From Methylobacterium mesophilicum SR1.6/6 (GTDB lineage: Bacteria; Pseudomonadota; Alphaproteobacteria; Rhizobiales; Beijerinckiaceae): 64,000 bases of DNA. Shown here piece after piece: positions 22,147-54,330 of the stretch (position 1 is its first letter; each line of letters starts with the position of its first letter). The stretch lies in contig NZ_CP043538.1 of NCBI RefSeq assembly GCF_000364445.2, forward strand, positions 3,863,447 through 3,927,446, written 5' to 3'. The position numbers and the translations under genes are program-made. The notes beneath the pieces are model-generated. The model saw only the letters and a program-made list of their open reading frames with translations, did not search any database and had not been told where the DNA came from.

Positions 22147-22149
22147 ATC

Positions 22150-36882: not shown

Positions 36883-37505
36883 CCGCCCCCGCCCGCAGGA
36901 TCCTGGACGACCTGAGACGGGCGCGCGCCCTCGTCATCCATCCCCGAGACGAGGAGGGCGCCGCGCTCCTGGAGCAGCTGCGCCGCCTCGGCTGCGCGGT
37001 CTCGCTCGCCTGGCCGCCCCCCGCCGCCCTGCCGCCGGAGATCGACACGCTGTTCATCCAGCTCGACGACGCGCAGGTGATGCACCTGCTGCCGTCCATC
37101 GAGGCGACCGAGCCGGCGGTCATCGCCATCGTGGCCTACGAGAGCCCGACCTCCCTGAAGGCGATCGCCGACGTGAACGCCCACGGCGTGCTCAACAAGC
37201 CCCTCCATCCCCGGGGCGTGCTGACCCAGTTCGCCCTGGCCCGCTACCGGCGCGGCTACGAGGGCCGGCTCACCAGCAAGATCAACCGGCTGGAGGAGAC
37301 CATGAAGGGCCGCCGCACCGTCGAGAAGGCGGTCCGGCTGCTCGTGGAGCTGAACCGGATCGACGAGGAAGCCGCCTACAGGATGCTCCGGGAGCGGGCC
37401 ACGGCCGCCCGGGTGCCGATGGCGAGCGTCGCCGAGGGCGTGGTGTCGGCCCACGAGGCGATGAGCGGTCTCGGCCTGCGCATCGCGCTGGCGGAAAAGA
37501 CCTGA
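36879..37505 (+). CDS. amiR: AmiR-like ANTAR-domain transcription antiterminator
   Basis: 208 aa. A receiver-like N-terminal domain (residues ~10-125) without a clear phospho-acceptor Asp (FIQLDDAQ) is followed by a coiled coil and a C-terminal ANTAR RNA-binding domain (residues ~140-195: EETMKGRRTVEKAVRLLVEL, EEAAYRMLRERA). ANTAR proteins bind leader RNA hairpins and prevent intrinsic termination. The GTG at 36879 overlaps amiC. Directly downstream is a leader with exactly such an intrinsic terminator. Confidence 0.88.
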   Translation: MTAPARRILDDLRRARALVIHPRDEEGAALLEQLRRLGCAVSLAWPPPAALPPEIDTLFIQLDDAQVMHLLPSIEATEPAVIAIVAYESPTSLKAIADVNAHGVLNKPLHPRGVLTQFALARYRRGYEGRLTSKINRLEETMKGRRTVEKAVRLLVELNRIDEEAAYRMLRERATAARVPMASVAEGVVSAHEAMSGLGLRIALAEKT

Positions 37506-37584
37506 TCGCAGCAGCATGCCGCATTTATGATCTTGCGGTCCGTCCGGCCCGGCGTATCGTTGCCGGACCGGGCAAGGCTGCCCC

Positions 37585-37660
37585 GCAGCAGACAGGCTGC
37601 ATCACATCTCGGCTTTGAAGCCTCTGGTTCGCGGATGAACTTCGCGCCCAGGGGCTTTTT
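37585..37660 (+). promoter_or_regulatory. Candidate AmiR-controlled leader with attenuator
   Basis: Three elements follow amiR. A hairpin GCAGC-AGACAG-GCTGC (37585-37600) has a 6-base loop beginning with A. A small alternative hairpin GGCTT-TG-AAGCC (37611-37622) comes next. Last is an intrinsic terminator whose 10-bp stem AAGCCTCTGG / CCAGGGGCTT (37618-37657, one G-U) ends in TTTTT. The second and third share AAGCC and are mutually exclusive. This is the expected layout of an ANTAR-regulated attenuator before the nitrilase gene. Confidence 0.6.
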
Positions 37661-37676
37661 GCGTTTTGGAACCAGC

Positions 37677-38522
37677 ATGATCCGAGCGAACGCCTCCGCA
37701 CGCGCGCCGATACGGGTGTCGTGCATTCAGTTCGAGCCGCAGATCGGTGCGGTCGCCGCCAATGTGGCGCGCGCGTCGGATCTCGTCCGCGCCGCCGCCG
37801 CGGAGGGCAGCCGGCTGATCGTGCTGCCGGAACTCGCCAGCACCGGCTACGTGTTCGAATCCGCCGCGGAGGCCGCCGCGCTGGCCGAACCGGTGCCGGA
37901 CGGCCCGACCACCCGGGCCTGGGCGGCGCTGGCCGCGGAGCTCGGCGTGCACATCGTGGCGGGGATCGCCGAAGCCGCCGGCGAGACCCTCTACAACGCC
38001 GCCGTGATCGTCGGGCCGGAGGGCTACATCGGCACCTACCGCAAGGCCCATCTCTGGGACCAGGAGAACGTGTTCTTCGCCAAGGGCGATCTCGGCTTTC
38101 CGGTCTTCGACACCGCCCTCGGCAAGGTCGGCATCGCGATCTGCTACGACGGCTGGTTCCCCGAGACCTTCCGCCAGCTGGCGCTCGGGGGCGCGGAGAT
38201 CGTCTGCATCCCGACCAACTGGGTGCCGATGCCCAACCAGCCCGAGGGCGAAGCCGCCATGGCCAACACCCTGCACCGGGCCGCCGCCCACTCGAACGGC
38301 ATCTTCATCGCCTGCGCCGACCGGGTCGGGATCGAGCGCGGCCAGCCCTTCGAGGGGCAGAGCCTGATCATCGGTCCCAAGGGCTGGCCGCTCGCCGGCC
38401 CGGCGAGCCGGGAGGGGACCGAGACCCTCTCGGCCTTGGTCGACCTCGACGAGGCCGGCCGCAAGGACCTCAACGCGTTCAACTCGCTCCTGCGCGACCG
38501 CCGCACCGACCTCTACGGCTGA
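37677..38522 (+). CDS. Nitrilase-superfamily amidohydrolase
   Basis: 281 aa. The Glu-Lys-Cys triad is intact: E52 (LPELASTGY), K123 (TYRKAHLWDQE) and C156 (AICYDGWFPE). The length and motifs fit aliphatic amidase or N-carbamoyl-amine hydrolase branches of the carbon-nitrogen hydrolase family. It is cytoplasmic. The start at 37677 lies just after the attenuator. The open frame continues upstream through the terminator, so that extension is rejected. It is probably the first enzyme gene controlled by AmiC-AmiR, hydrolysing an imported amide or carbamoyl compound. The exact substrate is unknown. Confidence 0.85.
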   Translation: MIRANASARAPIRVSCIQFEPQIGAVAANVARASDLVRAAAAEGSRLIVLPELASTGYVFESAAEAAALAEPVPDGPTTRAWAALAAELGVHIVAGIAEAAGETLYNAAVIVGPEGYIGTYRKAHLWDQENVFFAKGDLGFPVFDTALGKVGIAICYDGWFPETFRQLALGGAEIVCIPTNWVPMPNQPEGEAAMANTLHRAAAHSNGIFIACADRVGIERGQPFEGQSLIIGPKGWPLAGPASREGTETLSALVDLDEAGRKDLNAFNSLLRDRRTDLYG

Positions 38523-38604
38523 GCCGGGATCCGCCCCCGCCCCGGTCCGTCACCCAAGCCCGTCACCCAAGCCCGTCCCCCAGTCCGTCCTCAGGAGTTC
38601 GTTC

Positions 38605-39759
38605 ATGGTGAAATGGTCCCTCGCCGGCGCCGCGGCGCTCGCCCTCGCGGCCACGGCCGCGCCGGCCGCCGACGGCAAGCCGATCGTCATCGGCGTGCCC
38701 GTCGGCCTGTCGGGCGCCAACAGCGTCGTCGCCCCCTCGGTGGTGCAGGCGGCCGAACTCGCCGTGGAGGAGATCAACGCCAAGGGCGGCGTGCTCGGCC
38801 GCAAGCTCGTCCTCGAGGTGGCCGACGATGCCTCCGGGGCGGCCGGCGCCCAGAAGGCCTTCGACAGCCTGATCTACCAGAAGAAGGTCGACGTGCTGAT
38901 CTCGATGGAGACGAGCGCGGCCCGCAACGCCGGCCTGCCCGCCGTCACCAAGGGGAAGGTGCCGTACATCTACACCTCGTTCTACGAGGGCCATTCCTGC
39001 AACAAGAACCTGTTCGTGGACGCCTGGGTGCCGGAGCAGCAGGTGCCGCCGGTGGTGGACGCCTTCAAGGCGCAGGGCGCCAAGACCTACTTCCTGATCG
39101 GCAGCGACTACGCCTTCGGCCGCGGCATGCTGGGCTTCGCCAAGAGCTACGTCGAGAAGACCGGCGGCAAGGTGGTCGGCGAGGAATACCTGCCGATGGA
39201 CGGCAGCGACTGGACCGCCATCATCTCCAAGCTGAAGGAGGCCAAGCCCGACGCGCTGATCACCTCGACGGCGGGCGGCGCGCCGAACGTCACGCTGACC
39301 AAGCAATTGCGCGGCGCGGGGGTGACGCTGCCCTTCGCCAACCTCGCGCTCGACGAGGGCACCGCCAAGAGCATGGGCGCGGATGCCGAGGGCGTCTACC
39401 TCTCGGCCTCCTACGTCACCGGGATCGACAGCGCCGAGAACAAGGCCTTCCTGGCGGCGATGCAGAAGAAGTTCGGCGCGGAGCTGCGCACCCCGAACGA
39501 CCTCTCGGTGCCGGAATACGAGGCGATCTACCTCTACAAGGCCGCCGTCGAGAAGGCCGGCGGGACCGAGACCGCCAAGGTGCTGGAGGCGCTGCCGACC
39601 GTGAGCTTCACCGGGCCTCGGGGCACGATCACCATGAGCAAGCAGCACCACGCGCCGCTGACGATGTACCTCGGCCAGATCCAGAAGGATGGCACCGTGA
39701 AGGTCGCCGGCACCTTCAAGGACGTCGATCCCGGCGCGCAGTGCCCGAAGCTGCAGTGA
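38605..39759 (+). CDS. ABC transporter substrate-binding protein, branched-chain amino acid/urea/amide type
   Basis: 384 aa with a signal peptide (KWSLAGAAALALAATAAPAA). The mature protein is a type I periplasmic-binding protein of the LivJ/UrtA group (GVPVGLSGANSVVAPSVVQA, IGSDYAFGRGMLG, DALITSTAGG). The ATG follows AGGAG. A short tandem repeat CGTCACCCAAGCC precedes it. Its permease and ATPase partners are not adjacent but resume at 49874, beyond an apparent insertion. Confidence 0.88.
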   Translation: MVKWSLAGAAALALAATAAPAADGKPIVIGVPVGLSGANSVVAPSVVQAAELAVEEINAKGGVLGRKLVLEVADDASGAAGAQKAFDSLIYQKKVDVLISMETSAARNAGLPAVTKGKVPYIYTSFYEGHSCNKNLFVDAWVPEQQVPPVVDAFKAQGAKTYFLIGSDYAFGRGMLGFAKSYVEKTGGKVVGEEYLPMDGSDWTAIISKLKEAKPDALITSTAGGAPNVTLTKQLRGAGVTLPFANLALDEGTAKSMGADAEGVYLSASYVTGIDSAENKAFLAAMQKKFGAELRTPNDLSVPEYEAIYLYKAAVEKAGGTETAKVLEALPTVSFTGPRGTITMSKQHHAPLTMYLGQIQKDGTVKVAGTFKDVDPGAQCPKLQ

Positions 39760-39781
39760 GGGGCGGGGGGCTGGGGGAGCC

Positions 39782-39965
39782 GCTTCTCTCCCTCCCCCCT
39801 CTGCGGGGGAGGGTGGCCCCCGAAGGGGGTCGGGAGAGGGGAGCGACGGGGCAGGATGAAACGCCGGCCTTCATGAAGGTCGCGCCCTTTTCTGAAGCGT
39901 CGCTCCCCTCTCCCGACCCCTGCTGACGCAGGGGCCACCCTCCCCGCGGAGGGGGAGGGGGCACA
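39782..39965. repeat. GC-rich interspersed repeat, family A (long copy)
   Basis: The hairpin core CCTCCCCCCTCTGCGGGGGA with GGTGGCCCCCGAAGGGGGTC opens the repeat. An inverted counterpart CGCTCCCCTCTCCCGACCCC closes it. The 39760-40125 gap is made of this repeat, the direct-repeat copy A, and GC-rich sequence after it that I cannot assign. Confidence 0.75.
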
Positions 39966-39996
39966 GCGTCACCCCCGCGCCGTCCCCGATCCCGCG
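39933..39996 (+). repeat. Direct repeat copy A at left edge of the beta-oxidation block
   Basis: The sequence from GGCCACCCT through GGCACAGCGTCACCC to CCGTCCCCGATCCCGCG recurs at 49792-49858 in the same orientation with only a few small differences. The right copy lies directly before the livH gene that should follow the binding protein. The two copies therefore bracket the intervening ~9.8 kb. Confidence 0.85.
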
Positions 39997-40125
39997 TCGG
40001 CCCCGCGCCCCGCCTTGTCCGCGGTCGGGGCCGCGGCGGCGCCCGCGCCGTCGGCGTGACGTGCGGGCGGGACGGGCCCGGGCGCGCGGGCCGGCAGGAC
40101 CGGTGAGCCCGGCAACGGCCGCTCC

Positions 40126-40251
40126 GGCGATCTCGTCGAACGGGTTCATCGACATCTTCACGTTGGCGAGCTCGACCCCGGAGCCGTCGGCCTTCACGCG
40201 GATCTTCACGTTGTAGTCCACCACCCGCTTCACGGGCACCAGAACCTTCAT
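40126..40251 (-). pseudogene. etfB: Truncated electron transfer flavoprotein beta subunit
   Basis: The ATG at 40251, with AGGAGAGG upstream, starts a perfect EtfB N-terminus ([20 protein letters not shown], then [12 protein letters not shown]). After 42 codons the similarity stops abruptly and the frame runs into unrelated GC-rich DNA and the direct repeat. A normal EtfB has about 249 residues. The cut marks the left end of the rearranged block. Confidence 0.85.
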
Positions 40252-40312
40252 CCTGCCTCTCCTGAAGATCTTCCGATCGCCGGTGACCGGCGTCACGTCC
40301 TGCGCGGCGGCA

Positions 40313-40621
40313 TCAGGCGTCGAGCAAGCCGGCGAGCTTCATCGCCACGCCCTGCGATCCCTGGACCTTCAGGCGGCCGGTGGAGAACGCGATCATCGGG
40401 CTCAGCTTGCCGCGCACCAGCTTGAGCAGGTTGTCGGAACTCAGCTTCATCACCGTGTCGGCCTCGCCGCCTTCGCCGGTGGAAACGTTCACGCCGCCGC
40501 CGGTCGCGTCCACCAGGATGCTGCCGCCATCGGTGAGATCGAATCGCACCCGGTAACCGAGGGTGCTGAGCGCCTCGGACCGTTCCTCGATGGACTCGAC
40601 CAGTTGCCCGAGTTCCGCCAT
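40313..40621 (-). CDS. SCP2 sterol-carrier-like lipid-binding protein
   Basis: 102 aa with the SCP2 fold signature ([49 protein letters not shown]). Such small proteins bind acyl chains or acyl-CoA and often accompany beta-oxidation genes. The ATG at 40621 is preceded by GGAGGCGAGCG. It lies between the acyl-CoA dehydrogenase and the etfB fragment, all on the minus strand, and probably belongs to the same operon. Confidence 0.82.
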
Positions 40622-40698
40622 CGCTCGCCTCCGTCGTTTCGCCTGGAATGAACGCATGCCCCCCGCCCGGCCTTCGGGCAGGGCGCGGGGGTTTCGCG

Positions 40699-42489
40699 TC
40701 AGAACATCGCCTCGTCGAGCGCCATCATCGCGCCCTTGCCGGACTTCACGGCCGCCAGCAGGCCCGCGACCTGGGGCAGGACGCGCTCCATGTAGAAGCG
40801 GGCCGTGGCGAGCTTCGCCTCGTAGAAGTCGCGCTCGTCCGTGCCGGCTTTCAGCGCCGTGTGGGCGACCTTGGCGGAGCGCAGCCACATGTAGCCGAGC
40901 GCCACCAACCCGAAGAGCCGCAGGTACTCCGTGGCGGCGGCGCCCGCCTCCTCCGGATCCTTGAGGCCCCGCTGGGCGATGTGAGCGGTGGCGAGTTGCA
41001 GCGCGCCGAAAGCCTTGGCCAGCGGCTGGGCCAGAGACGACAGGTCATCGTCCTCGATCGCCGCGTCGAGGGCGGCGAGCACCGGGTGGAAGAAGCTGCG
41101 CAGGTACCGCCCGGCATGGGCCGGGAGCTTGCGGCCCACGAGATCGAGGGCCTGCACGCCGTTCGTACCCTCGTAGATCATCGAGATCCGGGCGTCGCGG
41201 ACATACTGCTCCATGCCGTGGTCGCGGATGAAGCCGTGGCCGCCATAGACCTGCATGCCGATGCTCGCGGCCTCGAAGCCGAGATCGGTGAACAGCGCCT
41301 TCACCACCGGGGTCATGAGCGCGGCGAAATCCTCCGCCCGGCGCCGCTCGGCGGGGTCTGGGTGGTGCTCCATCACGTCGAGGCTGCGGGCGACCCAGGC
41401 ACCGAGCGCCCGGCAGCCCTCGTTGGTGGCGCGGATCGTCATCAGCATCCGCCGCACGTCCGGGTGCACGATGATCGGGTCGGCGGGCAAATCCGGACGC
41501 TTGGTGCCGACCAGCGAGCGGCCCTGGAGCCGCTCCCGCGCATAGGCGACGGCGCCCTGGTAGGAGGCCTCGCCGGCCCCCAGCCCCTGGATGCCGACCG
41601 ACAGGCGCTCGCTGTTCATCATCGTGAACATCGCGCGCATGCCCTTGTGCGGCTCGCCGACGAGCCAGCCGGTGGCGTCGTCGAAGGACATCTGGCATGT
41701 GGCCGAGGCCTTGATGCCCATCTTGTGCTCGAGGGCGCTACAGGAGACGCCGTTGCGCTCACCCGGCGTCCCGTCCGCCCGGGGCAGGAATTTCGGCACG
41801 AGGAACAGGCTGATCCCCTTCACGCCCTTCGGCGCGTCCGGGAGCTTCGCCAGGACGAGATGGATGATGTTCTCGGTAAGGTCGTGGTCGCCAGCCGAGA
41901 TGAAGATCTTCGAGCCCGTCACCGTGTAGGAGCCGTCCGCCTGCGGCACCGCGCGGGTGCGCAGCAGGCCGAGATCGGTGCCGCAATGGGCCTCCGTGAG
42001 GCACATCGTGCCCGCCCAGGTCCCGTCCACGAGCTTCGGCAGGTAGGCGGCCTTGAGTTCCTCCGAGGCGTGGTCCGCCAGCGCCTTGTAGGCGCCGTGG
42101 CTGAGCCCCGGATAGAGCCCGAAGGACAGGTTGGTCGAGCAGATCATCTCCTCGACCAGCTTGTTGATGCCTGCCGGCAGGCCCTGGCCGCCATAGGCCG
42201 GATCCGCCCCCATCGCGGTCCAGCCGCCTTCCCGGAACGCCCGGTAGGCCTCCGGAAAACCCTTCGGCGTGCGGACCGCGCCGTTCTCGAGCAGGCAGCC
42301 CTCCGCGTCGCCGGAGGCGTTCAGCGGCAGCAGCCGCTCCTCGCAGAACTTCGCCGCCTCCTCGAGGATGGCGTCGGCGACGTCGGGGGTGAAGTCTTCC
42401 AGGCCCGGCAGGACCGGGGCCTCTTGGTCGGCGTGCAGCTCGTGCAGCACGAAGCGCATGTCGCGCAGGGGAGCCTTGTAGGTCTGCAT
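40699..42489 (-). CDS. Acyl-CoA dehydrogenase (long, ACAD with C-terminal extension)
   Basis: 596 aa. The FAD-dependent acyl-CoA dehydrogenase fold covers residues ~60-460 (MCLTEAHCGTDLGLLRTRA, GSKIFISAGDHD), with the catalytic Glu in SMIYEGTNGVQALDLVGRK. The ~130-residue C-terminal domain is typical of the DmdC/FadE-like long group. It catalyses the first step of beta-oxidation and passes electrons to ETF. The etfB gene in this operon is truncated, so it must use another ETF. The stop of the preceding gene is four bases upstream of the ATG. Confidence 0.9.
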   Translation of the reverse strand: MQTYKAPLRDMRFVLHELHADQEAPVLPGLEDFTPDVADAILEEAAKFCEERLLPLNASGDAEGCLLENGAVRTPKGFPEAYRAFREGGWTAMGADPAYGGQGLPAGINKLVEEMICSTNLSFGLYPGLSHGAYKALADHASEELKAAYLPKLVDGTWAGTMCLTEAHCGTDLGLLRTRAVPQADGSYTVTGSKIFISAGDHDLTENIIHLVLAKLPDAPKGVKGISLFLVPKFLPRADGTPGERNGVSCSALEHKMGIKASATCQMSFDDATGWLVGEPHKGMRAMFTMMNSERLSVGIQGLGAGEASYQGAVAYARERLQGRSLVGTKRPDLPADPIIVHPDVRRMLMTIRATNEGCRALGAWVARSLDVMEHHPDPAERRRAEDFAALMTPVVKALFTDLGFEAASIGMQVYGGHGFIRDHGMEQYVRDARISMIYEGTNGVQALDLVGRKLPAHAGRYLRSFFHPVLAALDAAIEDDDLSSLAQPLAKAFGALQLATAHIAQRGLKDPEEAGAAATEYLRLFGLVALGYMWLRSAKVAHTALKAGTDERDFYEAKLATARFYMERVLPQVAGLLAAVKSGKGAMMALDEAMF

Positions 42490-42493
42490 CGCG

Positions 42494-44818
42494 TCAGTTC
42501 CTCACCGGCCGGCCGGTTTCGATCACGCTCTCGAACCGGTCGAGGGTCGCCTCCGTCCGCACGAGGCGCATGAAGCTCTCGCGCTCGAGCTCGAGGATCG
42601 CCGCCTCGTCGACGGGATCGAGGCTGTCGGCCTCGCCCCCGGAGAGCACCGCGGCGAGTTCCGCCGCCACTACGAGATCGTGCTTCGTGGCGATGCCCCG
42701 CCGGGCAAAGCCTTCGGCCGCCATGCGCAGGGCCAGCGCCCCGGACGGGCCGGGAAGCGTCAGCGTCACGGGCTTGGGCGGCGCGTAGCCCTCGACCAGC
42801 GACAGGGCCTTGGCCTTGGCGTCGGCGAGCAGCCGGTCCCGGTTCATGGTGATGCCGTCGGTCGGACGCAGGAACAGGAGGTCGCGGGCCTCCTCGGCGG
42901 ACTTGGCGACGGTGGCGGTCGAGACCGTCTCGAACACCTTGGCGGTCGCCGGCATCGGCCCGTTGGGCAGCTTCGGCGCCGATTGCCAGCGGGCCAGCAT
43001 CTCCTTGCACCCGCCCCAGGCCGGGACGAGGCCGACGCCGGCCTCCACGAGGCCGATATAGCTCTCGGCATGGGCCTGCACCGCGTCCGAGTGGAGCAGG
43101 ATCTCGCAGCCGCCGCCGAGCGCCATGCCGGCGGGGGCGCTGACCACCGGGAACGGCGCGTATTTCAGCTGGGCATAGGTCTGCTGGCCGAGCGAGACCA
43201 GCTTCTCGATCTCCCCCCAGGCGGCGATGTTGGCGGCGAACAGGGCGAGACCCAGATTCGCGCCGACCGAGAAGTTGGTCGCCTCGTTGTAGACCACCAG
43301 CGCCTTGTGCTTGTCCCTGACCAGCTTGATGCTCTTGCCGAGCAGGACCAGGATCTGCTCGTCCAGGGCATTGCTCTGCGACGTGAACTCGAAGCAGACC
43401 ACGCCGTCGCCGATGTCCCACAGGGCCGCCGAGCCGTTCCTGAGGAGCGGCTTGCCCGCGAGCTTGATGTCCTCCAGCCGCAGCACGCCCTCGGGACGGA
43501 CGATGTTTTCGTAGTCGCCCCCGACTGTCAGAACCTGCCGGCGGCCATCCTCGACCCGGTAGAAGGTCCGGCCGTCCAGGCCGGCGAGGATCGGCGGGAC
43601 GGCGTGACCGTCCTTCGCCAGCCGCTCGACCACGTAGGCGCCGCCGATCCGGTCGATCAGCTCGAACGGACCCCACTTCCAATTGTAGCCGAGGCGCATG
43701 GCCTCATCGATGGCGGCGATCTCGTCGCTCGCCTCGCCCACGAGGCCGGCGGCATAGGCCAGCGTCGGGCCGATCACCGTCCAGGCGTAGCCGCCGACGC
43801 GGCCCGGCAGGTCGAGCACCGCGCGGGGGCCCTTCGCCTCCTTCAAGCCGGGCAGGTCCGCCCTGGCGGACGGCCGGTATTCGCCCGTCTTGAGGTCGAT
43901 GGCCTCCTTGGTCTTCTGCGCGCCCGCCCGGTTCAGGCGGTAGAAGCCGCCCTTGCCCTTGCGGCCGGTATAGCCCTCCGCGATCAGCGTCGTGATCAGC
44001 GGCATCTCGCGGTACGTGGCGTGGAACGCGTCCTCCGACGGCAGGGCCGCCCGCAGGCTCTTGGTGGTGTGCGGGATCAGGTCGAGGCCGACGAGGTCCA
44101 CGAGGCCGAACACGCCGGTCTTCGGGATGCCGAAGGGGCGACCCATCACGGCGTCGGCCTCCTCCACCGGCACGCCGAGGTCGATCGCCGCCGCGATGGC
44201 GTTCTGGATCCAGAAGATGCCCAGCCGGTTGGCAATGAAGCCCGGCCGGTCCTTGCAGCGCACGACGCTCTTGCCGAGCCGGCGGTCGGCGAAGCCGGCG
44301 ACCGCCGCGGCCAGCGCCGGATCGGTCCGCGGGCCGGTGACGATCTCCAAGAGCCGCATGTAGCGCGGCGGGTTGAAGAAGTGGGTGATCAGGAAGTCCT
44401 TCGCGAACGCCTCGGGCATCCCCTCGATCAGCGCGTCCAGCGGGATGGTCGAGGTGTTGGACGAGATCGCAGTGCCGGGCCGGCGCACCGCATCGATGCG
44501 CCGGTAGAGGGTCTGCTTCACGTCGAGGCGCTCGACCACCACCTCGATGATCCAGTCGGCCTCGCCGAGCCGGTCGAGATGGTCCTCGATGTTGCACGCC
44601 TCCACGAGCTTGGCGGCGCGCGGCGACATGAAGGCGGCGGGCTCCGTCTTCAGCATCTTGGCGATGGCGTCCTTGGCCAGCGCGCTCCGGTCGGCGGCGC
44701 CCTCCGGCACGACATCCATGAGGAGCACCGGCACGCCGGCATTGGCGACATGGGCGGCGATGCCGGAGCCCATGACCCCGGCGCCGATGACGGCGACTTT
44801 GCGGATCCCGGTCATCAT
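42494..44818 (-). CDS. 3-hydroxyacyl-CoA dehydrogenase / enoyl-CoA hydratase fusion
   Basis: 774 aa. The NAD-binding domain starts at once (VAVIGAGVMGSGIAAHVANA), followed by two hydroxyacyl-CoA dehydrogenase C-terminal domains. An enoyl-CoA hydratase/crotonase domain occupies residues ~450-700 (LVVYNEATNFSVGANLGLAL, APAGMALGGGCEILLHSD, GLVEAGVGLVPAWGGCKEML). This order, dehydrogenase first, is the FadN-like arrangement rather than classical FadB. The ATG at 44818 overlaps the thiolase stop in an ATGATGA, so the genes are coupled. It catalyses the second and third steps of beta-oxidation. Confidence 0.92.
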   Translation of the reverse strand: MMTGIRKVAVIGAGVMGSGIAAHVANAGVPVLLMDVVPEGAADRSALAKDAIAKMLKTEPAAFMSPRAAKLVEACNIEDHLDRLGEADWIIEVVVERLDVKQTLYRRIDAVRRPGTAISSNTSTIPLDALIEGMPEAFAKDFLITHFFNPPRYMRLLEIVTGPRTDPALAAAVAGFADRRLGKSVVRCKDRPGFIANRLGIFWIQNAIAAAIDLGVPVEEADAVMGRPFGIPKTGVFGLVDLVGLDLIPHTTKSLRAALPSEDAFHATYREMPLITTLIAEGYTGRKGKGGFYRLNRAGAQKTKEAIDLKTGEYRPSARADLPGLKEAKGPRAVLDLPGRVGGYAWTVIGPTLAYAAGLVGEASDEIAAIDEAMRLGYNWKWGPFELIDRIGGAYVVERLAKDGHAVPPILAGLDGRTFYRVEDGRRQVLTVGGDYENIVRPEGVLRLEDIKLAGKPLLRNGSAALWDIGDGVVCFEFTSQSNALDEQILVLLGKSIKLVRDKHKALVVYNEATNFSVGANLGLALFAANIAAWGEIEKLVSLGQQTYAQLKYAPFPVVSAPAGMALGGGCEILLHSDAVQAHAESYIGLVEAGVGLVPAWGGCKEMLARWQSAPKLPNGPMPATAKVFETVSTATVAKSAEEARDLLFLRPTDGITMNRDRLLADAKAKALSLVEGYAPPKPVTLTLPGPSGALALRMAAEGFARRGIATKHDLVVAAELAAVLSGGEADSLDPVDEAAILELERESFMRLVRTEATLDRFESVIETGRPVRN

Positions 44819-45951
44819 GCGCGCTCCAGAAGGGTGGCGATGCCCTGGCCGCCGCCGATGCACTGGGTGGCCAGCGCGAAGCGACCGCCCTCGCGGGCGA
44901 GCAGCGCGGCCGCCTTGCCGACGATTCGGGCGCCCGTGGCGCCGAGAGGATGGCCGAGCGCGATGGCGCCACCGTCGATGTTGACGGTCGTCTCGTCGAG
45001 GCCGAGGTCGCGGATGCAGGCCAGCGCCTGGGAGGCGAAGGCTTCGTTCAGTTCAACCACGCTCAGCGCGTCCGCGGTGATGCCCGCCCGCGCCATGGCC
45101 TTCCGCGAGGCGGCGACGGGACCGATGCCCATGATCTCCGGCTCGCAGCCCGAGACGCCGACGGCGGCGATCCGTGCCAGCGGCTTGAGGCCGGTGCGGC
45201 GGATATAGGCGGCGCTGCAGACGAGCACCGCCGAGGCGCCGTCGGTCAGCGGCGAGGAGGTGCCGGCGGTGACCGAACCGTCCTGCTGGAAGGCCGGCTT
45301 GAGGCCGGCGAGCCCCTCGGCGCTGGCATCGGGCCGGATGCAGCCGTCGGCCTCGACGGTGCCGGCCTTGGTGGCGATCGGCACGATCTCGGCGGCGAGC
45401 CGCCCCTCGGCCTGGGCCTGCGCCGCCTTGCGGTGGCTTTCCACCGCGAAGGCCTCCTGATCGGCGCGGGTGATCTGCCAGCGGCGGGCGACGTTCTCGG
45501 CGGTGTCGCCCATGCCCATGTAGGCGCCGGGCCGCTTCTCGTGGAGCGCCGGGTTCGGCATCGGATTGAAGCCCATCATCGGCACGCGGCTCATGCTCTC
45601 GACGCCCGCGCAGATGAAGGCCTCGCCGGCCCCGAGCATGATCTGCCCGGCCGCGATGTGGACCGACTGCATCGAGGAGCCGCAGAAGCGGTTCACGGTG
45701 ACGCCGCCGACGCTGAGGTCGAGGTCGGCGAGCAGACCGATCAACCGGGCGACGTTGAAGCCCTGCTCGCCCTCGGGGAAGGCACAGCCGACGATCAGAT
45801 CCTCGATGTCCTTCGAGGCGATGCCGGTATCGGCGACGAGCTTGCGCACGACCTGCGCGGCGAGGTCGTCCGGGCGGACCCGGGCGAGAGCCCCTTTCTT
45901 GGCCAGGGTGAAGGGCGAGCGGGCGTAGCCCGCGATGAAGACGTCGGTCAT
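44815..45951 (-). CDS. Acetyl-CoA acyltransferase (thiolase)
   Basis: 378 aa. The catalytic residues are present: Cys in VNRFCGSSMQSVH, His in GGAIALGHPLGATGAR and Cys in ATQCIGGGQGI. It performs the last, thiolytic step of beta-oxidation and completes the set with the dehydrogenase/hydratase and ACAD encoded next to it. The ATG at 45951 follows GAGAGGATAGC. The 411-bp gap upstream (45952-46362) contains a palindromic repeat and no gene. Confidence 0.92.
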   Translation of the reverse strand: MTDVFIAGYARSPFTLAKKGALARVRPDDLAAQVVRKLVADTGIASKDIEDLIVGCAFPEGEQGFNVARLIGLLADLDLSVGGVTVNRFCGSSMQSVHIAAGQIMLGAGEAFICAGVESMSRVPMMGFNPMPNPALHEKRPGAYMGMGDTAENVARRWQITRADQEAFAVESHRKAAQAQAEGRLAAEIVPIATKAGTVEADGCIRPDASAEGLAGLKPAFQQDGSVTAGTSSPLTDGASAVLVCSAAYIRRTGLKPLARIAAVGVSGCEPEIMGIGPVAASRKAMARAGITADALSVVELNEAFASQALACIRDLGLDETTVNIDGGAIALGHPLGATGARIVGKAAALLAREGGRFALATQCIGGGQGIATLLERA

Positions 45952-46121
45952 GCTATCCTCTCGGAACGATCACGAAGGGGGCGTGCGGGGGTGACGGCCG
46001 CCCGCGGGAAAGCGGAGCGGCGCAGGCGCGTATTTCGAGACGGGGTCCGCGGGCGGTTCCCGCTCGCGACGCGCCGCGGCGGGACTGGCCTAGCTCGGAA
46101 AGGCGGCCTTCCAACCCGACA

Positions 46122-46236
46122 CCCTCATCCCGAGGTGCGAGCGCAGCGAGCCTCGAAGGAGGGCTCCCGGGATCGCGCGGCCGGCTGGAGGGCTCCTTCG
46201 AGGCCTCCGCTGCGTTCCGGCGCCTCAGGATGAGGA
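46122..46236. repeat. Interspersed palindromic repeat, family C
   Basis: CCCTCATCCCGAGGTGCGAG and GCGCCTCAGGATGAGG are the complementary ends. Inner arms CCTCGAAGGAGGGCTCC and GGAGGGCTCCTTCGAGG also pair. It sits between the MerR and thiolase genes. It is one copy in this window of a type common in Hyphomicrobiales genomes. Confidence 0.75.
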
Positions 46237-46362
46237 CGATGGGTGGGATCGTCCCCTCGGATACCCGGCAGGACGCGGTCGTGAAGCGCGGCAGCGCGAC
46301 CGGACAGGGCTCGGAAGCGTGGTTCGGGCGCGCTTCCTGGCGCCGAACCGGCAGAGAGCGCT

Positions 46363-46767
46363 CTAGCGCGCCCGCCGCGTGTTGGCCGGCTTGGCGGTTT
46401 CGAGGGCGGCCAGCGCGTAGTGCTTGAGCTTCTCCAACTCGCCGAGCGTCTCGACGAGAGCCTTCTGCTGCTCGACGAGCTGATCGATTCGGCCCTCGAT
46501 CTTCTTCAGAAGGTCGCGCCACTGCTCCTTCTGCGTCGGATCGACGTCGTAGAGATTGAGGTAGTCCTTGATCTCGCGCAGCGAGAAGCCCAGGCGCTTG
46601 CCCCGCAGGATGAGGATCAGCCGCACCTTGTCGCGGTGCGCGAAGATGCGCGTGTTCCCGGCCCGCTGCGGATTTAGAAGCCCCTTGTCCTCGTAGAAGC
46701 GGACTGTCCTCGCCGTGACCCCCAATTCCTTGGCGAGTTGGGTCACAGTATACAGTGTGTCGGACAC
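46363..46767 (-). CDS. MerR-family regulator of the beta-oxidation block (LiuR-like)
   Basis: 134 aa from a GTG at 46767, with GAGAAGG upstream. A longer frame exists but lacks a ribosome binding site. The N-terminal MerR HTH reads YTVTQLAKELGVTARTVRFY then EDKGLLNPQR, followed by a coiled coil (LLKKIEGRIDQLVEQQKALV). There is no metal-binding Cys cluster, so it is an organic-effector type. Its likeness to LiuR-type regulators of acyl-CoA catabolism, and its place between the ligase and the thiolase, suggest that it controls this cluster through the TGACGTATACGTCA sites. That is inference. Confidence 0.82.
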   Translation of the reverse strand: MSDTLYTVTQLAKELGVTARTVRFYEDKGLLNPQRAGNTRIFAHRDKVRLILILRGKRLGFSLREIKDYLNLYDVDPTQKEQWRDLLKKIEGRIDQLVEQQKALVETLGELEKLKHYALAALETAKPANTRRAR

Positions 46768-46824
46768 AGAGAGCCTTCTCGAACGGGAGGCCACCGTATT
46801 CCTGGACTCTATGGAGCGTCAACG

Positions 46825-48546
46825 TCATGCCGACGCCCGCCTGTCCAGGGCCGCGCGATCGGCGCGGTCGCGCTCCTCCGCGACCAGTTCCTTCTTCGAC
46901 AGCTTGCCGACCGCCGTCTTCGGCAGGCTCGCCCGGATCTCGATCTCCCGAGGCAGCTCGATCTTCGAGATCCGCGCCGCCAGGAAAACCCGAAGCGCCT
47001 CCGGCGTCGTATCATGCCCGGCGCGCAGCTTCACGAAAGCTTTCGGGCTCTCGCCGCGATACGCGTCGGGAATGCCGATCGCGACCGCCTCCTCGACGGC
47101 CTCGTGCTCGTAGAGCGCGTCCTCGATCTGGCGTGGATAGACGTTGTATCCGCCGCAGAGGATCAGATCCTTGATCCTGTCGACCAGAAACAGGAAGCCG
47201 TCCGCGTCGCGGTAGCCGATATCCCCCGTCTTCAGCGCGCCGTCGAGAAGGATTTCGGCCGTCTCAGCCGGACGGCGCCAGTAGCCGGCCATGACCTGCG
47301 GACCCCGGACGAAGACTTCGCCCTTCGCGCCGGGCGGCAGGATCCGATCCGGGTGACGCGGGTCGCGGATCTCGATGGCCGTGTCCGCCAGCGGCAGACC
47401 GACCGACCCGGCGCGGCGGCGGGCATCGAACGGGTTGACGCAGACGACCGGCGAACACTCCGTCAAGCCGTAGCCCTCCGACACGCGGCATCCCGTGAGC
47501 GCCTCGAAACGGGCGGCGATTTCGGCCGGCAGCGGGGCACCGCCCGAGATGCACAGCCGGATCGATCCAAGGTCGACCGTCGCGGTTTCCGCCGCCTTGT
47601 TGATGGCCCCGAAGAGCGTCGGGACCGCGGGAAAGAAGGTCGGCCGCGTTCGGGCGATGGTGGCGAGGAGCTGATCGATCTTGAACTGTGGAACGAGGAT
47701 GATCTGCGCGCCGATCTTGAGCGCGAGGTTCATCGCCACCGTCATGGCGAAGACGTGGAATAGCGGGATGACGGCCAGGACACGCTCGCGGCCGTCCCGC
47801 AAGCCCGCCTCCCGGACGAGCGGGGCCAGCTGAGCGACATTCCCGGCGAGATTGGCGTGGGTCAGCATCGCCCCCTTGGGCGTGCCGGTCGTCCCGCCGG
47901 TATATTGTAGCAGCGCGACATCGTCGGGGCGCACGGTGGCACGCGTCCGGGATCCACCGGAACGCCCGACCAGCCTGGCCCAGCGGACGTGCCGCGCATC
48001 CGCCGGCACCCGGGCGGTTTCCGACCGCCTGAACAGGCGATAGAGAACGCCCCGGCCCAGGGGCAGCACGTCCGCGAGCGGACAGACCACCAGGTGGTGC
48101 AACCCCGCCTCGTCCGCGACCGCGGCGACCGGATCGTAGATCCGGGCGATGTCGGACACGACCATCACCGTCGTCCCCGAGTCGCGGATCTGGGTCGCGC
48201 ATTCCCGGGACGTGTAGAGCGGGTTGAAGTTGACGACGGTTCCACCGGCTTTGAGGACCGCGAAGTAGAAGACCACGAAATACGGCGTGTTGGGCAGGCA
48301 CAGTCCGACCCGGACACCGCGCCCGACTCCCAGTCGTGCGAGACCCGCCGCCAACCGATCGGCCAGAGCGCCGACCTCGCGATAGGTCCAAGCCCGCCCG
48401 CAGAATTCGAGCGCCGGCCGGTCCGGGAAGCGCGACACGCTTTGATCGAGAAGATCCGGCAGCGTGCTCGATCCAGCGACTTGTCGCCGTGCTTGAGCGG
48501 ACGCGGCCGCTTCGCCGAGCACGCCATCGATGTGAATGGCCGACAT
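46825..48546 (-). CDS. AMP-forming acyl-CoA ligase (FadD-like)
   Basis: 573 aa. ANL-superfamily motifs are complete: P-loop YTGGTTGTPKGAMLTH, GYGLTECSPVV, YRDADGFLFLVDRIKDLI and a C-terminal PKTAVGKLSKKEL with the catalytic Lys. It activates a fatty or other carboxylic acid to acyl-CoA with ATP and would feed the beta-oxidation enzymes encoded downstream. The ATG at 48546 is preceded by a palindromic site ~60 bp upstream that may be the MerR operator. Confidence 0.9.
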   Translation of the reverse strand: MSAIHIDGVLGEAAASAQARRQVAGSSTLPDLLDQSVSRFPDRPALEFCGRAWTYREVGALADRLAAGLARLGVGRGVRVGLCLPNTPYFVVFYFAVLKAGGTVVNFNPLYTSRECATQIRDSGTTVMVVSDIARIYDPVAAVADEAGLHHLVVCPLADVLPLGRGVLYRLFRRSETARVPADARHVRWARLVGRSGGSRTRATVRPDDVALLQYTGGTTGTPKGAMLTHANLAGNVAQLAPLVREAGLRDGRERVLAVIPLFHVFAMTVAMNLALKIGAQIILVPQFKIDQLLATIARTRPTFFPAVPTLFGAINKAAETATVDLGSIRLCISGGAPLPAEIAARFEALTGCRVSEGYGLTECSPVVCVNPFDARRRAGSVGLPLADTAIEIRDPRHPDRILPPGAKGEVFVRGPQVMAGYWRRPAETAEILLDGALKTGDIGYRDADGFLFLVDRIKDLILCGGYNVYPRQIEDALYEHEAVEEAVAIGIPDAYRGESPKAFVKLRAGHDTTPEALRVFLAARISKIELPREIEIRASLPKTAVGKLSKKELVAEERDRADRAALDRRASA

Positions 48547-48605
48547 GTTCCCCTCCCTCTCCTGCTCGGCTCTTTTGGGAGCGCTTCGCTTAGGCAGGCC
48601 AGGAC

Positions 48606-48619
48606 TGACGTATACGTCA
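48606..48619. promoter_or_regulatory. Palindromic operator candidate before the acyl-CoA ligase
   Basis: TGACGTATACGTCA is a perfect 14-bp palindrome in the ligase promoter. A copy with one change, TGACGTATAGGTCA, lies at 49024-49037 before the broken fadL gene. The shared motif before two lipid genes suggests a common regulator, probably the MerR protein encoded nearby. Confidence 0.6.
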
Positions 48620-48778
48620 ACTAATATCCCAATAGGTCAGACTCGTGCAAGCCCGATCGGCGAACGGGCGTCTGACGCTCCCGGGCCACGGATTGCGCAC
48701 GCGCGTGGCACGCGGGGCGTCGCCGACCGCGTGGGACGATGCGAGGATCGCGAACGGGCTGGGCGGACCGGGTGCGTG

Positions 48779-48880
48779 AGAGCGTCCGCCCGCCGTACCG
48801 ACGCCCAAGTCGAAGGCAGACGACCGGCGCAATCTGTCCCGAGAGCGTAAGCGCGTGGGCCCGCGCGGTCGCGCGAGGCA
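48779..48880 (+). repeat. 102-bp inverted repeat, left copy
   Basis: This stretch is present as an exact reverse complement at 49378-49479. No gene is recognised here. The surrounding 48620-49184 is otherwise the AT-richer promoter region of the divergent ligase and fadL genes. Confidence 0.9.
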
Positions 48881-49023
48881 GAAGCGGTGCCGTCCGCGTC
48901 GAAACTGTGCCGGCATTGGTGCCAAAAGGGCACACCCACCGCGGCTCGACCGGCTGCAACCGGTTTCAACCGCCAAACGCGGCGTCTCAACCTTGCAGTT
49001 TTATACCCCTTAAGTCACTTTGA

Positions 49024-49037
49024 TGACGTATAGGTCA
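49024..49037. promoter_or_regulatory. Second palindromic operator candidate
   Basis: TGACGTATAGGTCA differs by one base from the perfect palindrome at 48606. It lies ~150 bp before the fadL fragment. A separate perfect palindrome AGATCTGCAGATCT (49159-49172) is found immediately before the fadL ribosome binding site. Confidence 0.5.
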
Positions 49038-49184
49038 TGATGCCGATCTTGCGAACGGCGATGTCCGGTGAGGTCACAGTGCCAGGCGAAGCCGTGACGG
49101 GCCTGAGACAGAAGTCGCCACACGTAACAAAACAAAAAATTATCTTTCTGCATCGATGAGATCTGCAGATCTGGGGGAAAAGGT

Positions 49185-49377
49185 ATGGTTGCCAACATCG
49201 GATTTCGTGTCGGAGCGGCCGCGCTGCTTGCCTCGGTCTGTGGAATGACGGAGGCGCATGCGGGTGCGTTTGGGATCCGGGAGCAGAGCACGCAGGCCCA
49301 GGGTCTGTCGTACGCGGGGGCGGCGTCGGGCTCGGGCGGCGTGTCGTCGATCTTCTGGAACCCGGCCACGATCACCA
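49185..49377 (+). pseudogene. Truncated FadL-family outer membrane fatty acid transporter
   Basis: ATG at 49185 with GGGGGAAAAGG upstream. A signal peptide (GFRVGAAALLASVCGMTEAHA) is followed by the FadL N-terminus: GAFGIREQSTQAQGLSYAG, then SSIFWNPATIT. Homology ends after ~64 codons, exactly where the 102-bp inverted-repeat copy begins. A full FadL-like protein is about 400-450 aa, so this is a non-functional fragment. Confidence 0.8.
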
Positions 49378-49479
49378 TGCCTCGCGCGACCGCGCGGGCC
49401 CACGCGCTTACGCTCTCGGGACAGATTGCGCCGGTCGTCTGCCTTCGACTTGGGCGTCGGTACGGCGGGCGGACGCTCT
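49378..49479 (-). repeat. 102-bp inverted repeat, right copy
   Basis: Exact reverse complement of 48779-48880. It separates the fadL fragment from the SDR fragment, and the open frame happens to continue through it. A patch of copied inverted DNA at a gene junction is typical of a rearrangement scar. Confidence 0.9.
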
Positions 49480-49731
49480 TCGACCGCGTGTTCCGGGTCA
49501 ATGTGAAGTCGATCTTCCACTACGTCCGCGCCATCGCGCCGCTGATGCGCGACGCGGGCGGCGGCGTCATCCTCAACGTCAGCTCGACGGCGGCCCTGCG
49601 TCCGCAGCCGGGGCTGACGTGGTACAACGCCTCCAAGGGAGCGGCGAGCCTCGCCTCGAAGTCCCTGGCCCTCGAACTTGCGCCCTGGAAGATCCGGGTG
49701 AACGCCCTCTGCCCGGTGATGGGCGCCACCG
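49480..49731 (+). pseudogene. Fragment of a short-chain dehydrogenase/reductase gene
   Basis: About 84 codons of the central part of an SDR: FDRVFRVNVKSIFHYVRAIA, GGVILNVSSTAALRPQPGLT and the active-site WYNASKGAA with catalytic Tyr and Lys, then RVNALCPVMGATG. The N-terminal NAD-binding half and the C-terminus are missing. The frame is open from the fadL start at 49185 to 49898, giving a chimeric 237-aa ORF that is unlikely to be functional. Sequence from 49732 to 49791 is not recognisable. Confidence 0.8.
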
Positions 49732-49791
49732 GCGTCCGTTTCGTCGAACGCGTCGCCTCCCGTCGCCGGACCCGGTCGCGGTCGACGCGAC

Positions 49792-49858
49792 GGCCACCCT
49801 CCCCCGCGGAGGGGGGAGGGGGCACAGCGTCACCCGCCGCGCCGTCCCCGATCCCGCG
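49792..49858 (+). repeat. Direct repeat copy B at right edge of the beta-oxidation block
   Basis: Same orientation as 39933-39996: GGCCACCCT, GGCACAGCGTCACCC and GTCCCCGATCCCGCG with small indels. It forms the upstream leader of livH. It starts inside the tail of a family A repeat. Confidence 0.85.
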
Positions 49859-49873
49859 CACCCGGAAACCCCG

Positions 49874-50707
49874 ATGCTGCTCACCCTCGACATCCTGACC
49901 ACGGCGGCGATCCTGTTCATCGTCGCGATCGGCCTCCTGGCGATCTTCGGCGTGCTCAAGATCATCAACTTCGCCCACGGGGCGTGGCTGACGGTCGGCG
50001 CCTACTGCGCGGTGGTGACCGCCCGGCTCGGGCTCAATCCGTGGCTGGCGCTGCCGCTGGCCTTCGTCATCGGCGCGGCGCTCGGCGGCCTCGCCGAGCA
50101 CTTCATCATCCGCCCGCTCTACCGGCGGCCGCTGGACGCGATCCTCGCCACCTGGGGGCTCGGCATCGTGGTCGGGCAGCTCATCACCCTGGCCTTCGGC
50201 CGCGACGTCCAGCTCACCCCGAACCTCTACGCCGGCACCGTCGAGATCCTCGGCGTCGACTACTCCGCCTACCGCCTCGTCGCCCTCGGCATCGCGCTCG
50301 CGATCGGCACGCTGTTCGCGCTCACCATCGAGCGGACCCGGCTCGGCCTCTCGGCCCGGGCGGTGATCATGAACGAGACCCTGGCGCGCAGCCTCGGCAT
50401 CGACACGGGGCGCGTGCGCCTCGTCGTGTTCATGCTCGGCGCCGGCTTCGCGGGCCTCGCCGGCGTCCTGCTGACGCCGCTCACCAGCGTCGACCCGAAC
50501 ATGGGCGTCTCCTGGCTGATCGGCGCCTTCATGCTGGTGATGGTCGCCGACGCCTCGTACCTGGCGCTCGCGGCGGCCTGCCTGGTCTTCGGGGCCGCGC
50601 AGGTCCTGATCAGCACCTTCGTGAGCCCGATCCTGGGCAGCATCGCGGTCGCGGTGCTCGCAGCCCTCGTGCTGCGGATCAGCCCGAAAGGTTTCTCCCG
50701 TGCTTGA
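49874..50707 (+). CDS. ABC transporter permease, LivH/UrtB type
   Basis: 277 aa with about eight membrane spans and the LivH signature GVLKIINFAHGAWLTVGAY, plus SLGIDTGRVRLVVFMLGAG and the coupling region TRLGLSARAVIMNETLARSL. It is an inner-membrane permease for branched-chain amino acids, urea or amides. It overlaps the next gene by eight bases. With no binding protein nearby, its partner is probably the one ending at 39759, before the inserted block. Confidence 0.9.
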   Translation: MLLTLDILTTAAILFIVAIGLLAIFGVLKIINFAHGAWLTVGAYCAVVTARLGLNPWLALPLAFVIGAALGGLAEHFIIRPLYRRPLDAILATWGLGIVVGQLITLAFGRDVQLTPNLYAGTVEILGVDYSAYRLVALGIALAIGTLFALTIERTRLGLSARAVIMNETLARSLGIDTGRVRLVVFMLGAGFAGLAGVLLTPLTSVDPNMGVSWLIGAFMLVMVADASYLALAAACLVFGAAQVLISTFVSPILGSIAVAVLAALVLRISPKGFSRA

Positions 50708-52505
50708 GACCCTGCCCGTCGCCGAGCGCGCCGCCGCGGCACCCCGCCGGCGACGCCTGTCCCGAGCGGCGCCCGTCGTGGTCGCGGCCCTGGCGGCCCT
50801 GGCCCTCTGGATCGCGCCGCTCTTCCTCGACACCTTCGCGGTCAACGTCCTGACCCGCTCGATGATCTACGCGGTGCTGGCCGTCACGGTGGACCTGCTC
50901 TGGGGCTTCGCGGGGATCCTGACCTTCGGGCAGGCGGCCTTCTTCGGCATCGGCGCCTACGCCACCGCGATGATCCTCGCCGCCTACGGGGCGACGCCGC
51001 TGGGGATCGCCGCGGCGGTCGCGGCGGCGCTCGCAGTGCCGGCCCTGCTCGGCCTCGCGGTCGGCTGGCTGTCCTTCTACCACCGCTCGACCCCGCTCTA
51101 CGCCTCGGTGATCTCGCTGGTCGTCCCGATCGTCGTGGTGCAGCTCATCTATTCGGGCGGGGAATGGACCGGCTCCAGCAGCGGCCTCGTCGGCTTCGAC
51201 GTGCTGCCCTTCGAGATCGAGGGCTATTTCCGCCTCGCGGCCCTGTTCCTGATCGCGGTCACGCTGGCGGCCTGGATCCTGGTCCGGGCCGATGCCGGCC
51301 GCGCCCTCGTGGCGCTCCGGGACAACGAGGCGCGCTGCGCCTATCTCGGCCTCAACCCGCGGCGCCTGCAGATCCGGCTGACCGCCGCGCTCGCCGCCGT
51401 CGCCGGGCTCGCGGGCTTCCTGTTCGCCAACGCCTCCGGGGTGGTCGCGCCCGAGAATGCCGGCTTCCTGTTCGGCACCGAGCTGGTCATCTGGGTCGCG
51501 CTCGGCGGCCGCGGCACGCTGCTCGGCCCGGTGCTCGGCACCATCGCGATCGACTACCTCGCGGCGAACCTGTCCGGCGACCTGCCGTTCCTCTGGCAGC
51601 TCCTCCTGGGGACGGCCTTCGTGGCCATCATCATCCTGCTGCCGGGCGGCCTCGCCGACCTCGTCGGCCGCCTCTGGCGGGCGCTGCCGGTGGGCCGGCG
51701 GCAGCCGGCGCCGCCGCGCCTCGTCGCGCGGGTGGCCGCCGCGGAGCAGGCCGCCGCCGCGACCCCCATCCTCAAGGTCGAGAACCTCGCCAAGGCCTAC
51801 GGCGCCCTGACGGTTCTGGAGGGCATCGACCTCGAGATCCGCGCGGGCGAGCTCGTCAGCCTCGTCGGGCCCAACGGCGCCGGCAAGACCACGCTGATGC
51901 GCTGCCTCAGCGACGGCACCGAGCCGTTCAAGGGCGCGATCGCCGTCGGCGGCACGCCGATCACCGGGCTGACGCCGAACCGGATCGTCGGCCTCGGCAT
52001 CGGGCGCAAGTTCCAGGTGGCGAGCGTGTTCGAGAGCCTGTCGGTGGCCGACTGCCTCCGCCTCGCCCGGGCGTCCCACGACGGCCTGAGCCCGGTCGGG
52101 CAGGCGGAGACGCTGGGCCTGCCGCAGGCGGCCCTCGACGTGCTGCGCATGACCGGCCTCGACCGCCAGCTGACGCAGCCGACGCGCCTCCTGTCCCACG
52201 GCCAGAAGCAGGCGCTGGAACTCGCCATGGTGGTGGCGCTGGAGCCGCGGCTGATCCTGCTGGACGAGCCCACCGCCGGCCTGACCAAGGCCGAGCGCAC
52301 CACCATCGGCACCGTCCTCAAGGCGCTCACCGCCGGGGGACGGATCGCCGCCGTGCTGGTCGAGCACGACCTCGACTTCGTGCGCGAGATCTCGTCGCGG
52401 ATCGTGGTGCTGCACCAGGGCCGGCTCGTCCTCGACGGCACCGTGGAGGCGGTCGTCGGCTCGGAGCTGGTCCGGACCATCTATGCGGGAGGCGGCCATG
52501 GTTGA
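50700..52505 (+). CDS. Fused ABC permease-ATPase, LivM-LivG (UrtC-UrtD) type
   Basis: 601 aa joining two usually separate subunits. Residues ~1-325 form a LivM/UrtC permease (LLWGFAGILTFGQAAFFGIG, and ALRDNEARCAYLGLNPRRLQ as coupling helix). After a linker rich in Ala and Arg, residues ~355-601 form a LivG/UrtD ATPase with Walker A GPNGAGKTTLM, signature LSHGQKQALELAM, Walker B LILLDEPTAGLTKAE. GIGRKFQVASVFESLSVADC is closer to UrtD than LivG. The GTG start overlaps livH. Confidence 0.9.
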   Translation: MLETLPVAERAAAAPRRRRLSRAAPVVVAALAALALWIAPLFLDTFAVNVLTRSMIYAVLAVTVDLLWGFAGILTFGQAAFFGIGAYATAMILAAYGATPLGIAAAVAAALAVPALLGLAVGWLSFYHRSTPLYASVISLVVPIVVVQLIYSGGEWTGSSSGLVGFDVLPFEIEGYFRLAALFLIAVTLAAWILVRADAGRALVALRDNEARCAYLGLNPRRLQIRLTAALAAVAGLAGFLFANASGVVAPENAGFLFGTELVIWVALGGRGTLLGPVLGTIAIDYLAANLSGDLPFLWQLLLGTAFVAIIILLPGGLADLVGRLWRALPVGRRQPAPPRLVARVAAAEQAAAATPILKVENLAKAYGALTVLEGIDLEIRAGELVSLVGPNGAGKTTLMRCLSDGTEPFKGAIAVGGTPITGLTPNRIVGLGIGRKFQVASVFESLSVADCLRLARASHDGLSPVGQAETLGLPQAALDVLRMTGLDRQLTQPTRLLSHGQKQALELAMVVALEPRLILLDEPTAGLTKAERTTIGTVLKALTAGGRIAAVLVEHDLDFVREISSRIVVLHQGRLVLDGTVEAVVGSELVRTIYAGGGHG

Positions 52506-53244: not shown

Positions 53245-53263
53245 GGTCGACCCGGATCCGCCA

Positions 53264-53356
53264 CCGTCATCGCGAGCGCAGCGAAGCGACCCAGGGTCGC
53301 GCCACGCTCCCGGACGGGGCGCTGCTGGATTGCTTCGCTGCGCTCGCAAAGACGGT
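53264..53356. repeat. Interspersed palindromic repeat, family B, copy 3
   Basis: CCGTCATCGCGAGCGCAGCG and GCTTCGCTGCGCTCGCAAAG form the outer arms. It lies inside the amide operon between livF and the DUF1028 gene, on the coding strand, so it would be transcribed as a hairpin and could affect mRNA stability. Confidence 0.88.
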
Positions 53357-53393
53357 GGTGAATCGGGAGTAGGGAGGGGGAAGCCGAAAGCGC

Positions 53394-54314: not shown

Positions 54315-54330
54315 TGCCCCATGAGTGATG
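54303..54330 (+). repeat. 14-bp perfect tandem duplication at a gene junction
   Basis: CCCCATGAGTGATG occurs twice in a row. The first copy contains the stop of the DUF1028 gene, the second the ATG of the amidase. With a single copy the two genes would overlap by eight bases, like the other junctions of this operon. Confidence 0.9.

Follow-up and report, generated by a model that had tools for sequence, protein, structure and literature searches.

Harms et al. reportedly described in 2016 short-patch double illegitimate recombination in Acinetobacter baylyi, in which short intragenomic segments are placed at an ectopic site; these events are said to be single short patches that replace resident bases. 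The locus described here, in Methylobacterium mesophilicum SR1.6/6, likewise has intragenomic patches at an ectopic site, but differs in that several pieces in a row link a large insert with a duplicated target. We know of no role for polymerase theta in bacteria. The templated or complex insertions of eukaryotes (PMC5120786) also have short copies of distant sequences at their edges, whereas the present case concerns a bacterium.

In E. coli, 22 of 90 sequenced amplification junctions lie at REP sequences, and the same study interprets complex events as repeated template switches (PMC3161906). Our locus resembles the template switching, or microhomology-mediated break-induced replication, of starving E. 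coli as presented there: several joins in what may be a single event, sequence close by copied in inverted orientation, a preference for REP or hairpin sites and non-homologous joins, with no Ku found in our host. The E. coli events span kilobases and make amplifications (PMC3161906), whereas in a natural genome we find copies of 102-255 bp, taken from up to 1.1 Mb away, that separate a 9.3-kb insert from a duplicated target. Overlaps at the junctions measure 1-2 bp here versus 3-30 bp in the E. coli inverted duplications (PMC3161906). In a literature search that covered few subscription papers we found no description of this locus, nor of such a chain in a natural bacterial genome.

The interrupted amide operon

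The genome of M. mesophilicum SR1.6/6 is one contig of 6,555,179 bp (G000:C1). The window, i.e. the whole stretch of DNA analysed, is 64 kb long (G000:C1:3863447-3927446); positions without prefix refer to it. The amide operon and the site of its interruption comprise the following features:

35728-39759, plus strand: left half of the amide operon, with an amiC-like binding protein, an AmiR-ANTAR regulator, a carbon-nitrogen hydrolase and SBP2 (Pfam, synteny)
39788-39959, no strand assigned: REP-like inverted-repeat element at the target (own-genome search, DNA fold)
39933-39996, plus strand: duplicated target, left copy, 64 bp (alignment, own-genome search, relatives' spacers)
49792-49858, plus strand: duplicated target, right copy, 67 bp (same evidence)
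49874-55724, plus strand: right half of the amide operon, with livH, a livMG fusion, livF, DUF1028 and amidase (Pfam, synteny in relatives)

The Pfam domains of the left half are Peripla_BP_5/6, AmiR_N with ANTAR, and CN_hydrolase. SBP2 ends at 39759 and livH starts at 49874, with the fatty-acid block between them. A preliminary description of this DNA had noted that the binding-protein gene is parted from livH, livMG, livF, DUF1028 and amidase, and had proposed an insertion between SBP2 and livH; both statements hold. A search for livH in 60 relatives gave a near full-length match in 12 genomes, and the corresponding stretches were examined in all 12. In 11 of them (G002, G017, G010, G030, G007, G021, G020, G032, G029, G059 and G049) SBP2 lies directly next to livH on a single contig. 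In the twelfth (G036) a contig break lies between the two genes and the operon is spread over two contig ends, both of which read the SBP2 end then the livH start, in poor-quality sequence. The preliminary description would have regarded the same split in relatives, with intact etfB and SDR genes at the edges, as evidence against an insertion; none of the 12 operon-holding genomes shows this split or has the block between SBP2 and livH. Moreover, the host flanks joined in silico give a spacer that can be aligned with the SBP2-livH spacers of relatives. Thus the fatty-acid cluster is inserted into the amide operon between SBP2 and livH.

The direct repeat announced at the two edges was recovered there in the same orientation. 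Its copies differ by no substitution and by three single-base gaps, and the own-genome search gives the pair an E value of 7.3e-22 (the 83% alignment also spans weaker flanking similarity); the repeat is therefore not due to chance. The bases missing from the left copy are retained in the right one. The three one-base deletions of the left copy fall in G/C-rich runs and may be errors either of synthesis or of sequencing. As the preliminary description had anticipated, the unbroken operon of relatives can contain the repeated stretch once: this is the case, in direct orientation, for four of the six spacers compared (G010, G036, G017 and G002; 81-87% identity over 48-67 bp). In the same comparison the stretch is not found in the short spacers of G030 and G021, and the remaining spacer matches in relatives correspond to the inverted arm of the REP-like element. 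Because four spacers hold one direct copy, the 64/67-bp repeat is, judging from these alignments, a duplication of the insertion target.

The REP-like element has matches at more than 20 places in the genome (own-genome search), and the DNA fold of 39765-40000 has a z of -7.59, none of 200 shuffles being as stable. Positions 39933-39959 of the repeat lie inside this dispersed element, the other 37 bp outside. As the duplication includes these 37 bp, the REP-like repeat alone is ruled out as the source of the direct repeat.

The inserted fatty-acid locus and its edges

The inserted piece is 9.3 kb of a fatty-acid degradation locus, from etfB codon 42 to fadL codon 65. It contains six intact genes on the minus strand, from SCP2 to FadD; etfB is cut short at its left end and fadL at its right end. 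The features between the two target copies are, from left to right:

39998-40126, plus strand: filler A, 129/129 identical to G000:C1:3654642 onward (own-genome search, base comparison)
40125-40251, minus strand: etfB stub that reaches from base -1 to codon 42 and matches full-length etfB at G000:C1:1636598-1636724 in 127/127 positions
40313-40621, minus strand: SCP2 sterol-carrier domain protein (Pfam SCP2)
40699-42489, minus strand: acyl-CoA dehydrogenase (Pfam)
42494-44815, minus strand: 3-hydroxyacyl-CoA dehydrogenase / enoyl-CoA hydratase, FadB type (Pfam, relatives)
44815-45951, minus strand: acetyl-CoA acetyltransferase, i.e. thiolase (Pfam)
46363-46794, minus strand: MerR-type regulator (Pfam)
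46825-48546, minus strand: long-chain acyl-CoA synthetase, FadD type (Pfam AMP-binding)
48779-48880, plus strand: part of the fadD-fadL spacer from which the 102-bp inverted copy derives (inverted-repeat comparison)
49185-49379, plus strand: fadL stub, right edge of the block, cut at codon 65 (own-genome search, base comparison)
49378-49479, minus strand: 102-bp filler, exact inverted copy (102/102) of 48779-48880, with a 2-bp overlap (TG) with fadL
49479-49733, plus strand: filler D, internal SDR fragment of 255 bp, 254/255 identical to G000:C1:2790939 onward
49734-49791, no strand assigned: filler E, 58 bp, weakly like the REP arm of the target

The edges were resolved by own-genome searches and base-by-base comparison. 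They do not support the earlier picture of a plain 9.8-kb block flanked directly by the two repeats: short copies from the same chromosome separate the block from the repeats. On the left the target copy is followed by one extra base (T, 39997), filler A and the etfB stub, which opens the block. Filler A has its source inside a small Sigma70_r1_1-like gene at 3.65 Mb, 250 kb away, and overlaps the etfB stub by 2 bp. The truncation of etfB at this edge, already recognised, is a cut after 42 codons.

On the right the block ends with the fadL stub, followed by the 102-bp inverted piece, the SDR piece, the 58-bp piece and the right target copy. Two parts can be distinguished in the fadL stub: 49185-49251 is the block's own diverged fadL start, while 49252-49379 is identical (128/128) to full-length fadL at G000:C1:743777-743904(-). 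The SDR piece overlaps the inverted piece by 1 bp, and its source gene lies at 2.79 Mb, 1.1 Mb away. The preliminary description rightly saw a truncated SDR gene here, but this fragment does not belong to the block, being a near-exact copy of the gene at G000:C1:2790939. The SDRs fetched from three relatives are just 89-90% identical to the piece, which argues for the host lineage's own gene as the template.

The sources of filler A, of the inverted piece and of the SDR piece are all still in place, and since they are retained these fillers are copies. Divergence across the three amounts to one substitution in 486 bp. For the 58-bp piece the own-genome search returned no source. Its derivation from a mutated target arm was considered and rejected: the similarity is weak, its local score being matched by 12 of 3000 random segments and its anchored score by 6 of 400.

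As a control, 20 kb of the window was compared with the genome. Apart from matches to itself, seven reach both 90 bp and 98% identity, all due to one 130-bp repeat (19265-19394). This stretch is 100% identical at seven other places in the genome. It abuts, with a 2-bp overlap, 19074-19266, which is 92% identical to G000:C1:4246348-4246540(-), and the pair may be one end of an insertion sequence. Two further dispersed repeats, about 95-108 bp long, lie at 22053-22147 and 24382-24490; they are partly inverted copies of each other and have many genomic copies at 74-90%.

The parent locus was searched for in other genomes. In a scan of FadB loci (one genome per species, best 80 loci, with records of the host genome perhaps omitted) six loci reach 85-90% FadB identity, and all the others listed among the best 80 are at 71% or below. 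These six belong to J-067, M. longum, 2A, J-076, a Beijerinckiaceae MAG and M. fujisawaense. Strain 2A (L121) has the whole locus, in the order fadL/fadD-merR-thiolase-fadB-ACAD-SCP2-etfB-etfA. In J-067, J-076 and M. fujisawaense fadL and the core are present, whereas no etfBA lies next to them within the stretch fetched, and among the loci compared only 2A and M. longum have a complete fadD. Block matches of more than 5 kb among the 60 relatives are limited to M. longum (G017) and to G053, from another family, at 76%. Gene order in the host is the same as in strain 2A (79-92% nucleotide identity per gene) and in M. longum DSM 23933 (L120; 88-93%), but the 2A locus is complete, whereas the host copy is relocated and truncated in etfB and fadL. 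On gene order and identity, the block is thus part of a Methylobacterium locus of which strain 2A has the complete form. A truncation of etfB at codon 42 recurring elsewhere was looked for in 24 of the 120 matches listed; all continue as EtfB past this codon.

The surroundings of the locus vary. Strain 2A, M. fujisawaense and J-067 each have different flanks around the block, one flank being common to J-067 and J-076, and the fatty-acid locus exists with or without fadD and etfBA (L119, L121, L122, L124). Because both surroundings and fadD/etfBA content vary between strains, this locus would appear to be moved or rearranged often.

Both M. longum and strain 2A also have the internal SCP2-etfB and fadD-fadL joins, which speaks against a misassembly of the host locus. 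In M. longum each end of the block contig (C85) shares 111 identical bp with the end of a contig that carries a native gene, etfB (C14) or fadL (C7), while the rest of etfB, etfA and the rest of fadL were not found in the DSM 23933 assembly. These overlaps and missing gene bodies point to collapsed identical copies. Host and M. longum differ by 5% in the etfB stretch and by 12% in the fadL stretch. As the block ends match the genome's own genes in both hosts, they suggest gene conversion of these ends while the locus was still complete. The inserted piece probably came from the host lineage or from a near-identical one, because the etfB and fadL stubs exactly match the host's own genes. The stubs were also considered as extra filler, and this was set aside: both genes are in the 2A locus and M. 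longum shows the same identity.

Routes by which the piece may have been placed

To us the edges look like the footprint of a template-hopping repair, not like that of a mobile element. We favour, with modest confidence, the repair of a break or fork with repeated template switching at the REP-like hairpin as the process that placed the 9.3-kb piece. A break or a stalled fork at the hairpin between SBP2 and livH would start the repair, and the repair synthesis would switch templates several times. On the left edge one switch would have copied the gene 250 kb away. On the right edge, successive switches would have copied the block's own spacer in inverted orientation, the SDR gene 1.1 Mb away, then the source of the 58-bp piece. 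Synthesis would finally have re-entered the target about 67 bp from its exit point, thereby duplicating this stretch. Against this reading, gene conversion can account for the etfB and fadL stubs without any switching, because the block ends of M. longum match the native genes there just as exactly. We prefer template switching at the hairpin because the fillers are copies, one inverted and local and two from unlinked genes, and because no Ku was found: the profile search (PF02735) gave no match in the host genome. Ku was found in 4 of the 41 genomes searched (2 of the 25 of the genus); the profile therefore detects Ku in this order.

Capture of fragments by end-joining is the next candidate, and we consider it unlikely. 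A staggered break in the spacer would be filled in, which would account for the long (64/67-bp) duplication, and ligated to several double-stranded fragments. The joins are compatible with such a process. At the three joins with both sources known the overlaps are 2, 2 and 1 bp, and the left target join has none and an extra base. The overlap expected is 0.83 bp per join on average, and a sum of at least 5 is reached in 14% of random triples. Overlaps are thus not above chance, and some probability must therefore be left to an end-joining capture independent of Ku. Besides the lack of a Ku match in the host genome, this route has against it that the originals are in place, including that of the nearby 102-bp inverted copy, so that extra copies of each would be needed.

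The block could also have arrived first, the short copies being added later by separate small illegitimate recombinations such as those reported for A. baylyi. Short intragenomic patches from unlinked genes, present on both sides of the block, fit such a stepwise origin. But the fillers are confined to the joins between block and target, four or more side by side, and they are all nearly undiverged (the single substitution mentioned above), which makes us regard this origin as improbable.

An artefact of assembly or library at the junctions is very improbable. The ORF which crosses the right joins is seen in the host genome alone among the 120 listed of 2848 matches, which fits an artefact; against this, the genome is a single contig, four different joins of 58-255-bp pieces are atypical for an assembly error, and the joins of the block with etfB and fadL recur in M. 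longum. Finally, a transposon, an integron cassette or an integrase-borne island inserted by site-specific recombination, with the 64/67-bp repeats as attachment sites, is hardly credible despite the direct repeats that flank the insert and the different places of the block in strain 2A, M. fujisawaense and J-067/J-076: neither Pfam nor the six-frame ORF list shows a transposase, recombinase or integrase in the block, whose six intact genes are all metabolic or MerR; the 64-kb window has no tRNA or tmRNA as integration target; the insert ends have no terminal inverted repeats, the 48779/49378 inverted pair being internal; and for a transposon a short target duplication is expected, not one of 64/67 bp.

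Within template switching, the source and the date of the pieces are separate questions and several events may have taken place. We put forward as a tentative reading, which we would not yet call probable, a single event: a chain of templated insertions at the REP hairpin, formed without Ku, having visited at least three other places, two of them distant and one local and inverted, and duplicated 64/67 bp of target. It would be a bacterial counterpart of the templated-insertion chains seen in eukaryotic chromoanasynthesis.

Consequences for the amide operon

The insert cuts livH-livMG-livF-DUF1028-amidase off from the upstream operon, and the fadL start reads toward livH. Scans of 48500-50000 found neither promoter nor terminator, and Rfam gave no match at gathering thresholds. 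As no terminator-like site was found between the fadL start and livH, read-through from a putative fadL promoter into livH is possible.

An open chimeric frame (49185-49898) combines the FadL signal and start, the inverted spacer and SDR residues in the SDR's own frame, and ends just inside livH. The idea that selection has kept it as a new gene is not supported: the frame is also open in 4518 of 20000 random mosaics, and a match of frame has a one-in-three chance.

How bacteria without Ku paste large DNA into non-homologous sites is little documented in natural genomes. In the present case the empty site, the parent locus and nearly all the filler sources can be named to the base, so that the route can be read from one sequence. 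The locus shows how a gene cluster with no mobile-element gene can be relocated. It also illustrates how an insertion may sever an operon so that the distal half comes to lie behind another promoter. If the single-event reading is true, such a chain would have relocated a metabolic locus and put the amide ABC genes downstream of a putative fadL promoter.
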